Below are positions 10,432-21,692 of a stretch of DNA of 64,000 nucleotides, piece by piece; positions within the stretch are counted from its first letter, which is position 1; each line of letters begins with the position of its first letter. A program made the position numbers and the translations under genes. The notes beneath the pieces are model-generated. The model saw only the letters and a list, made by a program, of their open reading frames with translations, searched no databases and had not been told where the DNA came from. The stretch spans positions 2,671,001 through 2,735,000 of the forward strand of contig NZ_JABWRE020000001.1 of assembly GCF_014268815.2 (NCBI RefSeq). The letters run 5' to 3'. The DNA comes from Pseudomonas urmiensis (GTDB taxonomy: Bacteria; Pseudomonadota; Gammaproteobacteria; Pseudomonadales; Pseudomonadaceae).

Positions 10432-10519
10432 TGGCGGAAGCGTAGAGATTCGAACTCTAGGATAGTTGCCCATCGACGGTTTTCAAGACCGTTGCCTTAA
10501 ACCACTCGGCCACGCTTCC
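10432..10519 (-). tRNA. tRNA-Ser(UGA)
   Basis: Read on the minus strand, GGAAGCG (10519-10513) pairs with CGCTTCC (10442-10436), followed by discriminator G and an encoded CCA (10434-10432). The anticodon stem ACGGT/ACCGT encloses CTTGAAA with anticodon TGA (10485-10483). A long variable arm (CGATGGGCAACTATCC region) and GGTTCGAATC-type T loop (GTTCGAATCTC) identify a class-II serine tRNA. Length 88 bases. Confidence 0.97.
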
Positions 10520-18682: not shown

Positions 18683-19606
18683 GTGATCGAACTGCGCCAT
18701 TTGCATTACTTCCGCACCCTGGCCGAGACCTTGCATTTTGGCCGCGCAGCCGAGCGCCTGCACATCTCGCAGCCGCCGTTGTCGCGGCAGATCGCCCTGC
18801 TGGAAGAGGAACTGGGGGTGAAATTGTTCGATCGCTCGCGGCGCCGGGTCGAGCTGACCGAAGCCGGCCAGCGCTTCTACCTGGACACCGGCACGGTGTT
18901 CGCCGCCTTCGAGCAGGCCAAGCGCAATGCCCTGGCCGCCGCGCGCGGGGCGGCTGGCGAATTGTCGGTGGGGTTCATGATGTCGACCGCCTACAGCATC
19001 ACCCCGGCCATCACCCGCCGCTACGCAGCGCTGTATCCGCAGGTCAACCTCAAGTTGACCGAGACCTTGCCGCTGGACCTGGCCCAGGACATCAGCAGTG
19101 GCAACAAGGACGTGGCGATCATGTACCGGCCGCAGGATTGCAGTGGCCTGGAGACGGTGACCCTGTACCGCGAAGAAATGACCTTGGTGCTACCGCCTGG
19201 GCATCGTTTGATGGAACACGAGCTGATCGACCCGCAAGCGCTGGCCGGCGAGCCGTTCATCATCGTGCCCAGGCGGATTGCCCCGGCGCTGCACGACATG
19301 ATCTTCAACTACTGCCTGCAGCACGGCGTGACGCCGAACATCGGCATGGAGATCAACATGCAGCAGACCATCGTCAACCTGGTGGGTGAAGGCTTAGGGG
19401 TCGCCATCGTGCCGCGCTCGATGCGCAACATGCGCCTGGCCACCACCAGCTTCAAGCCGTTGAAGCACGCGCCGGTGATCGAAGTGGTGGCAGTGTGGAA
19501 GGCCGATAACCACAACCCGTGCATTGCCACCTTTGTCGAGACGGCGCTGCAGGCGGGCGAGCAGGCAACGCGCGAGGATCAGGCGCAGCGGGGGTTGGAG
19601 GGGTGA
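18683..19606 (+). CDS. LysR-family regulator, CatM/BenM-like branch
   Basis: A 307-residue protein with the HTH at residues 1-60 (MIELRHLHYFRTLAETLHFG..., PPLSRQIALLEEELG) and a periplasmic-binding-like effector domain (GFMMSTAYSITPAITRRYAAL). It starts with GTG 18683. The ELRHLHYF start and the FDRSRRRVELTEAG wing are typical of regulators of aromatic and organic-acid catabolism. It is part of the catabolic island and may regulate the activator gene it faces. Effector unknown. Confidence 0.92.
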   Translation: MIELRHLHYFRTLAETLHFGRAAERLHISQPPLSRQIALLEEELGVKLFDRSRRRVELTEAGQRFYLDTGTVFAAFEQAKRNALAAARGAAGELSVGFMMSTAYSITPAITRRYAALYPQVNLKLTETLPLDLAQDISSGNKDVAIMYRPQDCSGLETVTLYREEMTLVLPPGHRLMEHELIDPQALAGEPFIIVPRRIAPALHDMIFNYCLQHGVTPNIGMEINMQQTIVNLVGEGLGVAIVPRSMRNMRLATTSFKPLKHAPVIEVVAVWKADNHNPCIATFVETALQAGEQATREDQAQRGLEG

Positions 19607-19627: not shown

Positions 19628-19656
19628 CCTCATCGCGGGGCAAGCCCGCTCCCACG
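19628..19656 (-). repeat. REP palindrome, left copy of a pair
   Basis: CCTCATCGCGGGGCAAGCCC followed by GCTCCCACG. Intact. Its inverted partner, 29 bases further on, is split by the IS110 element. Confidence 0.85.
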
Positions 19657-19702
19657 CGCCCGGTACACTGACTGAACATGAGTAGCGTGGGAGATTCTAT
19701 GG

Positions 19703-20659
19703 TTATGGGCAAGCCAATTTCATAGCTCTGGTGATGTATTCGCCCTGATTTTTCATCAGGGCGAAAGCCACGCGGGCAAGCTTTCGAGCCAAGATGACCA
19801 AGGCTTGGGTTGTTGCTTTACCGCTGTTTCGATGCTGCTCATAAAGGTCTCTCCAAGCGGCCGACCTGCTGGCGGACATTGCCGCGTTGTGCAGCAAACG
19901 ACGGATCTCTGAACATCCCCGCTTTGTCAGGCGACGACGTCCATTCGTCTGCCCAGAGTCATTAACTCGCAGGTCCATTCCAAGGAATGCGATGAAGGAG
20001 TCACTGTTTTTAAATTCGCCTCTGACAAAGGCCATGACTAATGCCGCAGCGGTCAGAAAACCAATTCCTTCTACGGCTTGGCAGCGAGCCACTTGTTCTT
20101 GTAGTCCGGCTTCTCGGAGCACGTCCTTAAGTTTTTTCTGAATCAGTAAATCGAGGCGGTCTATCGATTTGACGAACACTTCGAAGGCGCTCTTCAAAAG
20201 GCTTTCATTGGCCCAGCTCTGAGTCATTGCAGTGCGCGCTGTCACCAAGGCAGCTCTGCGTCGCAGAAGGCTCTGGACCTTGCCGTAGACGGCGGGAGGG
20301 GGGCTCCAGGGGCGAAGATCTTCCCCTTCGTTTCTCAAGAACCGGGACAACAATCTCGCATCAGAAGGGTCAGTTTTGACTCGTCCTCCAACACTTTTCC
20401 GATAGTTGCTCAGTTGAAAGCCATCAATGACATAAACCTCAAGACCCGCACCATGGGCTAACTCGACCAGGTCCAAGTGATAGACGTTGGTCGCTTCAAC
20501 TGCGATAGCCGTGTTGAGCGGCTGTTGTTTCAACCATCGCTTGATGTCGGGTTTTGAATTTTTCAGTTTGATTACCTCATCACTAGCGTCGTGATGGATA
20601 ACCAACTCAGCCTTTGCGACGTCCGTACCCACGATCAGTTTGCCTGCCTGCATTGCCAT
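19703..20659 (-). CDS. IS110-family transposase (DEDD RuvC-like and Tnp_20 domains)
   Basis: 318 residues. The N-terminal RuvC-like DEDD domain shows its acidic residues in IVGTDVAKAELVIH (Asp), AVEATNVYH (Glu) and VKTDPSDARLLSRFL (Asp pair). The C-terminal Tnp_20 domain has VEGIGFLTAAAL, FLGMDLRVNDSGQTNGRRRL and the serine region HNAAMSASRS, the site expected to hold the nucleophilic Ser. Length is normal and no frameshift is seen, so it may be active. The stop codon lies inside the subterminal repeat. Confidence 0.96.
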   Translation of the reverse strand: MAMQAGKLIVGTDVAKAELVIHHDASDEVIKLKNSKPDIKRWLKQQPLNTAIAVEATNVYHLDLVELAHGAGLEVYVIDGFQLSNYRKSVGGRVKTDPSDARLLSRFLRNEGEDLRPWSPPPAVYGKVQSLLRRRAALVTARTAMTQSWANESLLKSAFEVFVKSIDRLDLLIQKKLKDVLREAGLQEQVARCQAVEGIGFLTAAALVMAFVRGEFKNSDSFIAFLGMDLRVNDSGQTNGRRRLTKRGCSEIRRLLHNAAMSASRSAAWRDLYEQHRNSGKATTQALVILARKLARVAFALMKNQGEYITRAMKLACP

Positions 20660-20688
20660 GGGCGGTTCTCCACGTTAAGGTTTTTCGG

Positions 20689-20851
20689 CTTGAAGGGGTT
20701 TCACCAAGAGGCGCTGGCTTGCTTCTATCGTCGCTTGCAAACGATGCATTCTTTATCGGCGCTTTGGTGGAAGGGGTGGGGCGATGTCTCCCACGGTCTG
20801 TACTGCTGCGAACAGTCAGAATCGGGCATTTAGTCCCACCACCCCTTCAAG
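20689..20851 (-). ncRNA. Candidate bridge RNA in the IS110 leader
   Basis: Read with the transposase, the leader folds into two stem-loops. Loop 1: GAAGGGGTGG (20848-20839) pairs with CCACCCCTTC (20779-20770). It holds GCCCG (20827-20823) on its 5' side, a small hairpin, and CGTGGGAG (20795-20788) on its 3' side. These match the left and right halves of the REP target. Loop 2: CACCAA (20769-20764) pairs with TTGGTG (20707-20702), with inner GCGC/GCGC. It contains AAAGAAT (20754-20748), close to the ATAGAAT at the element's own end. This is the layout of target-binding and donor-binding loops in IS110 bridge RNAs. Exact RNA ends are not known. Confidence 0.65.
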
Positions 20852-20900
20852 TCTAACCATACAAGCGGGCTTGCCCCGCGATGAGGCCGGCACTGCCAGA

Positions 20901-21692
20901 TCAGATCTCCAGGATCCCCGAAGCCATGAAGCCACCATCCACCGGGATCACATGCCCGCTGATGTACGAGGCATCCTCAGAAGCCAGAAACGCCACCGCC
21001 CCCGCCATCTCCGCCGGCGTGCCATAGCGGCGTAGAGGCACCGCCCGCGCATACGACTCACGCGTCGCCGCCGAATGCAGGGTCTGGGTCAGTGGCGTAT
21101 CCACCGGCCCCGGTGCAATGCCGTTAACCGTGATGCCATGCTCAGCCAGTTCAATCGCCATCTGCCGGGTCAGGCCAATCACCGCTGCCTTCGACGTGCC
21201 ATAAGCAGTACGTCCCATGCTCGCGCGCATGCCACTGATCGAAGCGACGTTGATGATCCGCCCCCAGCCCTGCTCGCGCATCAACTGCGCCGCCTGTTGG
21301 CTGCACAGCAAGGTGCCGGTCAGGTTGATGTTCATCAGCCGTTGCCAACCCTCAAGCTCAGTATCGAGAAACGCCTGGGTGCGGGCGACGCCAGCATTGT
21401 TGACCAGCACATCGCAGCGCCCATAGTGCTCGCGCAGCTGGGCGAACAGCGCACTGATCGACTGCCCATCGCCGACATCGATGACCATGGCCTGGGCCTC
21501 GATGCCCTGCACCCGCAGCCCAGCGACCATCTCTTCGGCCGCCGCCAGGTTGATATCGGCCACCACCACGCTGTGGCCGTCGTGACCCAGGCGTTCGGCG
21601 ATGGCCGCACCGATACCCATCGCAGCCCCCGTCACCAGCGCAACCCGGCCGTGGGCTGGCGCATACATCGTTGTTTTCGCAGCTTGGCTCAT
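20901..21692 (-). CDS. Short-chain dehydrogenase/reductase (SDR), last gene of the TRAP operon
   Basis: A 263-residue classical SDR: TGAAMGIG, NNAG, Ser in NVASISGM, Y-G-T-S-K, and VVADIN (Asp, so NAD(H) preferred). It follows the dctQM gene by 12 bases and shares its operon with the TRAP transporter, so it probably acts on the imported compound or its CoA ester. FabG-like beta-hydroxyacyl or 2,3-dihydrodiol chemistry is possible; the substrate cannot be fixed. Confidence 0.9.
   Translation of the reverse strand: MSQAAKTTMYAPAHGRVALVTGAAMGIGAAIAERLGHDGHSVVVADINLAAAEEMVAGLRVQGIEAQAMVIDVGDGQSISALFAQLREHYGRCDVLVNNAGVARTQAFLDTELEGWQRLMNINLTGTLLCSQQAAQLMREQGWGRIINVASISGMRASMGRTAYGTSKAAVIGLTRQMAIELAEHGITVNGIAPGPVDTPLTQTLHSAATRESYARAVPLRRYGTPAEMAGAVAFLASEDASYISGHVIPVDGGFMASGILEI

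Follow-up and report, generated by a model that had tools for sequence, protein, structure and literature searches.

Several elements with a close bearing on the locus studied here have been described. For IS621, a member of the IS110 group from E. coli, it has been reported that a bridge RNA is made from the left end under the control of a promoter formed when the ends are joined, that the element targets a REP sequence and that IS110 recombinases are programmable (Durrant et al., 2024, PMC11208160). In a second study, RNAs named seekRNAs have been described for the IS110-type element ISEc21 and the IS1111-type element ISPa11 (Siddiquee et al., 2024, PMC11187229). In Pseudomonas putida KT2440, ISPpu9 and ISPpu10 have been described as IS110 family elements that target REPs (PMC1525189, PMC8450116). 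Bridge RNAs of the IS110 group, their place in the left end, their two loops, the junction promoter and REP targets are already known, and the element described here adds a member. What is possibly new is that the left guide of the RNA fits the commonest REP arm of the host; a literature search on bridge RNAs combined with REPs or target evolution, covering sources other than bioRxiv and few subscription papers, returned no title or abstract start on guides that follow host REPs.

In this study, we analysed an IS110-type element and its leader in a window of Pseudomonas urmiensis DNA (the whole stretch analysed, 64,000 nucleotides). Judged from the sequences compared, the leader very probably encodes a bridge RNA of the IS110 group that guides recombination between the element's circle and REPs, with the left guide steering the choice of the REP arm. 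The element and its immediate setting consist of the following features:

19694 to 20863, minus strand: IS110-type insertion sequence, 1,170 bp between the cores, with the 5' end (LE) at 20863 and the 3' end (RE) at 19694; four copies with different flanks
19703 to 20659, minus strand: transposase/recombinase gene, 318 aa, with Pfam domains DEDD_Tnp_IS110 and Transposase_20
20864 to 20865, no strand assigned: core dinucleotide at the left end, AG on the plus strand and CT on the element strand
19692 to 19693, no strand assigned: core dinucleotide at the right end, the second core copy
19628 to 19656, plus strand: intact REP holding GCCCGCTCCCACG, the inverted partner of the REP split by the element

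The element is set between convergent ORFs at 18683-19606 (plus strand) and 20901-21692 (minus strand), where it splits one REP of an inverted REP pair. Its recombinase contains PF01548 (1.5e-18) and PF02371 (1.2e-18), that is, the DEDD RuvC-like domain and the Transposase_20 domain with its conserved serine. Residues D13, E55, D97, D100 and S235 are near-invariant among 47 recombinase proteins (the window copy and one copy per genome from 46 genomes, the own genome among them), and the window copy therefore looks intact. Approximately 200 nt of noncoding sequence precede the recombinase ATG and 9 nt separate the stop codon from the right end; a long noncoding left end with a short right end is characteristic of the IS110 group, while the reverse marks IS1111. 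Beside the joined core the element has a subterminal ATA/TAT repeat, present here as CCATAGAAT and TGTATGG. This repeat is longer in four of five elements compared, with both sides differing together (CCATA/TATGG versus ACATA/TATGT), and shorter in that of genome G261. The domains, the noncoding ends, the ATA/TAT repeat and the site-specific insertion in multiple copies all fit, and the element belongs to the IS110 group.

The window element shares with ISPpu9 and ISPpu10 the REP target, a 2-bp direct repeat (AG for ISPpu9) and an insertion point between REP bases 9 and 10 (PMC1525189, PMC8450116); the comparison was made by description only, and the window element may or may not be one of them. 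It differs from ISPpu9 in having no downstream small RNA segment like ssr9, since just 9 nt follow its gene. According to the description of Ssr9, this RNA of ISPpu9 is flanked by boxes identical to the right and left ends of the element with AG at their junction, the layout of tandem joined ends, and orphan ssr9 copies apparently lie outside REPs (PMC8450116). It may be that Ssr9 is a bridge RNA transcribed from a promoter at this junction, and that its orphan copies are satellites whose guides differ.

The host genome, 5.79 Mb in size, contains four copies of the element, all of which are flanked by GCCCG-CT before and CT-CCCACG after the element while the surrounding flanks differ. The recombinase of one copy scores 690.7 bits and those of the other three 691.8 bits, and the 162-bp leader is 100% identical in all four. 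In the sister copy L001 (694,566, plus strand), ATC is found where the first ATG aligns, and an ATG two codons further on could still start the protein. A first-pass annotation, made from the window alone, had named sister copies at sites not matching the guides as an observation that would speak against a guide RNA; the four own copies all lie at GCCCG|CT|CCCACG and the 123 copies considered below favour their own guides, with exceptions. The same annotation had expected abundant REPs to offer many landing sites, and this holds: exact GCCCGCTCCCACG sites number 539 in the own genome (273 and 266 on the two counts, as compared with 0 and 1 for a reversed-pattern control). With 539 sites and four copies, few of several hundred predicted sites are therefore occupied.

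The predicted structural parts of the leader are:

20689 to 20851, minus strand: predicted bridge RNA of 163 nt, preceding the recombinase gene (fold z -3.5, covariation, own covariance model)
20842 to 20851, minus strand: 5' strand of the terminal stem, CTTGAAGGGG, with its partner at 20689-20698 (MFE; no variation at 8 of 10 pairs among 23 leaders)
20689 to 20698, minus strand: 3' strand of the terminal stem, CCCCTTCAAG (MFE and pair counts)
20833 to 20840, minus strand: 5' strand of the target-loop stem, GGTGGGAC, with its partner GCCCCACC at 20775-20782 (93.5% of cells paired)
20775 to 20782, minus strand: 3' strand of the target-loop stem, GCCCCACC (pair counts in 23 leaders)
20797 to 20820, minus strand: conserved hairpin TCTGACTG...CAGTACAGA between the target guides (fold and aligned leaders)
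20758 to 20769, minus strand: 5' side of the donor-loop stem, CACC...GCGC (GCGC/GCGC invariant in 23 leaders; CACC/GGTG with 96.4% of cells paired)
20702 to 20714, minus strand: 3' side of the donor-loop stem, GCGC...GGTG (same pair counts)

The predicted fold has an energy of -60.6 kcal/mol (z = -3.5), none of 200 shuffled sequences being equally stable, and consists of the terminal stem, a target arm and a donor arm. We aligned 43 leaders and counted pairs in 23 leaders of one structural class, in which 92.9% of the cells in stems are paired as compared with 36-42% in slid controls. Counted by cells, two-sided changes are found 30 times in these 23 leaders versus 10.8 +/- 2.6 times after shuffling (0 of 500 shuffles as high); counted by pair number, covariation in the stems is not above the shuffled level (5 versus 4.2, 187 of 500), and neither are further pair types (8 versus 9.8). 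Covariation in homologues, named beforehand in the first-pass annotation as something to look for, is hence present in the stem cell counts and in the guide-target pairs described below but not in the stem counts by pairs. In the target-loop stem, a UA pair is replaced by CG on both sides in 9 of the 23 leaders, and in 10, the window leader among them, the A of GAC has no partner; in the middle of the terminal stem, two pairs are open in 15 and 16 of the 23 leaders, respectively, with UA in place of AU in two.

It had been proposed in the first-pass annotation that a 10-bp stem formed by 20839-20848 and 20770-20779 (CCACCCCTTC / GAAGGGGTGG) encloses the target guides. This complementarity is exact, but the MFE structure and the homologues favour a different register, that of a three-way junction. 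In the 10-bp register 98.7% of the cells pair, without any two-sided change. The second stem of the annotation, in which CACCAA at 20702-20707 pairs with TTGGTG at 20764-20769, was recovered, and the terminal stem and the right donor guide are both additions to it. Among 19 leaders of another structural class, 15 have a 9-bp terminal stem (7 bp in G039) together with a target stem that reaches 13 bp at most; the two stems overlap by three bases (one in G039), so that approximately 10 bp of the target stem can form simultaneously, and the leaders of G080, G186, G252 and G390 fit this two-stem layout less well in a simple walk without mismatches. We prefer the three-way junction because it is the MFE structure and because these leaders keep a terminal stem beside a separate target stem; the leader probably folds in this way, and both registers possibly form. 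Rfam gave no match to the leader at the gathering score or at E values up to 1, the only gathering match in the window being a tRNA at 10435-10519, whereas our own covariance model, which includes the window leader, finds four places in the own genome, every one of them a leader of the element.

Within the target arm lie the two stretches on which the proposed function depends most directly:

20821 to 20831, minus strand: left target guide, AAATGCCCGAT, whose GCCCG equals target bases -5 to -1 (permutation test)
20788 to 20796, minus strand: right target guide, CCGTGGGAG, which pairs with CT+CCCACG (core and next five bases matching in 118-123 of 123 copies)

The GCCCG and CGTGGGAG which had been pointed out inside the 10-bp stem were found in these two guide regions, as were all other base runs claimed by the annotation at the places it gave. 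When the 163-nt leader was shuffled 5,000 times with its dinucleotides preserved, CGTGGGAG occurred in 18 shuffles, GTGGGAG in 70, and GTGGGAG together with GCCCG within 60 nt upstream in nine. Recombinase relatives at E values up to 1e-30 are present in 59 of 398 genomes of the genus, the own genome included. From 46 of the 58 other genomes we chose 120 stretches, at most five copies per genome, which together with the four own copies gave 123 placed copies in 46 genomes; the other 12 genomes with a recombinase match and the single copy of G091, which has no donor loop, lie outside this set. The guide was taken from one leader per genome; two or three variants of the leader exist in six genomes, but their guide stretches are the same except in G039, where the difference lies outside the five scored bases. 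The two G066 copies have a common left flank and are not independent. The CT core of the 123 copies is given by construction, since the end patterns include it, while the flanking bases are free of this constraint.

On the right side, the core and the next five bases match the guide in 123, 123, 123, 118, 119, 123 and 123 of the 123 copies and the following base in 15. The right-guide match claimed beforehand thus stands for CT+CCCAC, which is common to the family, and falls away for the eighth base, the outer C; since this C fits in merely 15 copies, we take CT+CCCAC as the common guide length. The outer base of the right guide is mostly C, which fits CTCCCACG, and the target outside the own genome is mostly CTCCCACA, a mismatch in 108 of the 123 copies. 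On the left side, bases -5 to -1 match in 98, 107, 107, 106 and 113 copies (24 mismatches at -5); the first core position matches in 42 copies and the second in 92. The left guides match their own sites at a mean of 4.29 of five bases, versus 3.46 when targets are dealt out among genomes, with none of 5,000 shuffles reaching the observed mean; the corresponding values for the 14 different left-guide 5-mers are 3.98 and 2.67 (0 of 20,000 as high). In G018 the guide reads ATTCG, as do the targets of all five copies, and in G094 the guides GTTCG and GTAGGAG go with GTTCG-CT-CCTAC targets in four of four copies. The right guide GTAGGAG is found with the target CTCCTAC in the one copy of G356, and in G080 the left guide CCGCC fits all four targets while the right guide has a one-base mismatch in each.

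There are also exceptions. All four copies of G139 and G004 (L099-L101, L150) are inserted at GCCCC-CT with a guide reading GCCCG, so that position -1 is mismatched each time. Left-guide mismatches are found in G245 (3/3 copies) and G364 (4/4), the G301 guide needs a bulge, those of G383 and G128 are shifted by one base, and in five copies of G066 and G213 the guide fits solely through U.G pairs.

A preference for the guide sequence could in principle reflect no more than the REPs on offer, and we therefore compared insertions with host REP composition. Four REP arm classes were counted in the 46 genomes, with counts that are low in G004, G080 and G356, near or not far above the control. The 34 genomes with a guide in one class were tested, the 12 with guide 5-mers outside the classes being left out. 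Insertions fall into the REP arm class of the guide in 74 of 85 classifiable cases, versus 55.4 expected from the host REPs (P = 1.7e-8 with copies taken as independent, which is roughly true); eight further insertions of these genomes have targets outside the classes and, if scored as misses, give 74 of 93. Eight of the 11 misses differ solely by a guide U versus a target C, which is compatible with wobble pairing, and three are true mismatches. In eight hosts the guide does not correspond to the commonest arm, and here 11 of 20 insertions are in the guide class versus 5.2 expected (P = 0.002, again with copies as independent). Insertions in G252 (3/3), G205 (2/2) and G254 (2/2) follow the guide class and not the host's commonest arm, as read from guides and REP counts and, for the first two genomes, from this test as well. 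The earlier proposal that the specificity of the element for REPs is guided by the leader RNA is supported, at the level of sequence comparison, by the fit of guides to their own sites and by this composition test. These natural sequence data support the idea that the guide letters, beyond REP abundance, decide where an IS110 element lands.

The guide class is also the commonest REP arm of the host in 26 of the 34 genomes, against a shuffled mean of 11.4 and with none of 20,000 shuffles as high. The elements of G000 and G385, whose recombinases are 92% identical, illustrate this. Their left guides read GCCCG and GCCGG; the insertion sites are GCCCG in four of four cases in G000 and, in G385, GCCGG or GCCAG (two and one of three). 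The host REPs comprise 935 GCCCG sites in the former and 876 GCC(A/G)G sites in the latter, the commonest arms differing like the guides.

According to an alternative view, the REP is recognised directly by the recombinase protein, while the leader does no more than regulate its translation, through a hairpin at the ribosome-binding site and an antisense RNA as reported for ISPpu9, the guide matches being by-products. ISPpu9 does insert into REPs, and it has a 244-nt tnp 5'-UTR and the small RNAs Asr9 and Ssr9, which affect tnp expression, as described in PMC8450116; moreover, a regulatory role of the leader could coexist with a guide role. We consider protein reading very improbable: insertions follow the guide sequence more closely than host REP composition would predict, changes in guide and target go hand in hand to the left and to the right of the core, and the G000 and G385 elements, despite their closely similar recombinases, differ in guide and sites alike, in hosts whose commonest arms differ likewise.

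On a quick recombinase tree, the guide classes (41 rows) require at least 11 changes versus 17.9 when shuffled, that is, they are clustered. For independent pairs on this tree, class GCC(A/G)G was taken as host-typical if it was the commonest or above 45%, so that G296 (431 versus 432) was counted. Host and guide shift in the same direction in 2.9 of 5 pairs (in opposite directions in 0.2), 3.0 of 3 and 1.3 of 2, numbers too few for significance. That the leader gained REP pieces by chance or imprecise excision, and that REPs and elements were inherited in common by related hosts, making the match one of history and not of function, has these two observations and a REP-like stretch inside the G080 element in its favour but is the least probable explanation of all, as the matches occupy the same two loop places in the aligned leaders (with the one-base shift of G383 and G128) and involve both strands, the insertions of G252, G205 and G254 follow a guide class other than the host's commonest arm, and the deviations in the composition test are mostly U versus C, which points towards pairing.

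Given a leader RNA that guides insertion, its fit to the host's commonest arm is compatible both with adaptation of the guide and with loss of elements in unsuitable hosts. There is perhaps an even chance that the left guide of Pseudomonas IS110 elements has been rewritten repeatedly (at least 11 class changes), mostly towards the commonest REP arm of the present host; the RNA would then be a quickly adjustable and nearly harmless address that keeps abundant intergenic sites within reach, with U-for-C letters as a tolerant intermediate. The relatives provide a natural series in which closely similar recombinases are combined with differing left guides, in hosts that differ in their REP arms; this makes it testable how an RNA-guided element re-addresses itself when the host changes, and the copy set can be used as a collection of natural guide/target pairs for IS110 recombinases.

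The remaining parts of the leader and the ends of the element concern the donor side and transcription:

20748 to 20757, minus strand: candidate left donor guide, GATAAAGAAT, which resembles the right end ATAGAAT (6/7) and is nearly invariant in the family
20716 to 20726, minus strand: candidate right donor guide, GCAAG (ACAAG in relatives), which would pair with CTTGT of the left end, with one G.U
20856 to 20861, minus strand: -10-like TATGGT (4/6), which meets the -35-like hexamer once the right and left ends join
19707 to 19712, minus strand: -35-like TTGCCC (4/6), in the last codons of the recombinase gene, with a 17-bp spacer to the -10 in the circle

The match of AAAGAAT, part of the candidate left donor guide, to the right end at six of seven positions had been noted before and was confirmed, and CAAG of the candidate right donor guide is invariant in the 43 aligned leaders. 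Since there is hardly any variation in the family, the case for the donor guides is one of sequence resemblance. The joined ends give TTGCCC-17 bp-TATGGT, a weak sigma-70-like promoter with 8 of 12 consensus letters. With the register fixed, the circle has a better -35 than the integrated element in 44 of 45 cases (G039 being skipped) and a worse one in none; for the best promoter in any register, the circle is better in 37 of 45, equal in seven and worse in one. The predicted promoter is better formed where the ends of the excised circle join than in the integrated element, and it is not exclusive to the circle.

Taken with what is described for the family, these features suggest the following course of events. 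Excision would join the right and left ends and thereby form the promoter that transcribes the leader, and the RNA would fold as a three-way junction. In the target arm, the left guide, which copies the target GCCCG, would pair with the bottom strand and the right guide with CTCCCAC on the top strand, while the other arm would carry guides for the element's own joined ends. The DEDD/serine recombinase would then bring circle and REP together and recombine them at the CT core common to both. Because the left guide is the most changeable part among relatives, the element would go mostly to the REP arm with which it can pair, U.G pairs included.

This proposed arrangement is similar to that described for IS621 (PMC11208160), in which a noncoding RNA is encoded in the left end, the promoter spans the joined ends, the first loop is for the target and the second for the donor, the 5' side of the loop pairs with the bottom strand and the 3' side with the top strand, and a CT core and an ATA/TAT end repeat are present. 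The window element differs from IS621 in targeting another REP family, and variation among the Pseudomonas relatives compared is found in the left guide, the right one being almost constant. As in the description of seekRNAs (PMC11187229), a predicted RNA from a noncoding region matches both target strands, with the bottom-strand match first as in ISEc21; natural re-direction has been reported for seekRNAs. In ISPa11, by contrast, the RNA lies downstream of the gene with the matches in reverse order, and the re-direction described for ISEc11 and ISXne4 is between two quite different sites (3/13 bp alike) and not between REP variants (PMC11187229).

The ISPpu9/Ssr9 layout suggests that solo or tandem bridge-RNA satellites could exist, and these were looked for with a joined-end pattern. 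This pattern, CATAGAATCTTGTATG in exact form, matches 2 of 398 genomes of the genus, neither with a bridge-RNA leader after the junction; a wider search gave 36 matches, three in Pseudomonas, again with no bridge-RNA leader after the junction, and 33 in other organisms. A search of the plasmid collection gave no match, and a protein scan of the genome-contig collection found no recombinase relative. Weak matches to the covariance model in draft genomes were left uncounted, many being within approximately 100 bases of a contig end with the target loop alone covered. Apparent mini-elements of 680 bp in G046 (L219-L221), without tnp and with the bridge RNA only, were rejected: the printed copy has a run of N mid-way, and the end search turned out differently for each of the three copies, no right end being present in the stretch for one of them, so that they look like an assembly or scaffolding gap in a repeat.

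Some natural variants of the element were also found. In L269 (G129) and L240, leftover IS ends stand back to back, CTGTGGGAGATTCTATG...CATAGAATCTTGTATG, and a recombinase gene is missing. In L191 (G091), an element with 86% identity, the donor stem-loop is missing and the target stem runs straight into the terminal stem, as if the leader had been deleted between two CCCCTTC repeats; the recombinase frame has no internal stop, and the genome contains no second match. The copy is possibly a natural mutant that has lost the donor loop. Lastly, the G080 element (L088-L090, L154) is 1,373 bp long including both cores, and its REP-like stretch, GCAAGCCGGC-CT-CCCACG or GCGAGCCGGC-CT-CCCACG, lies between the recombinase gene and the right end.
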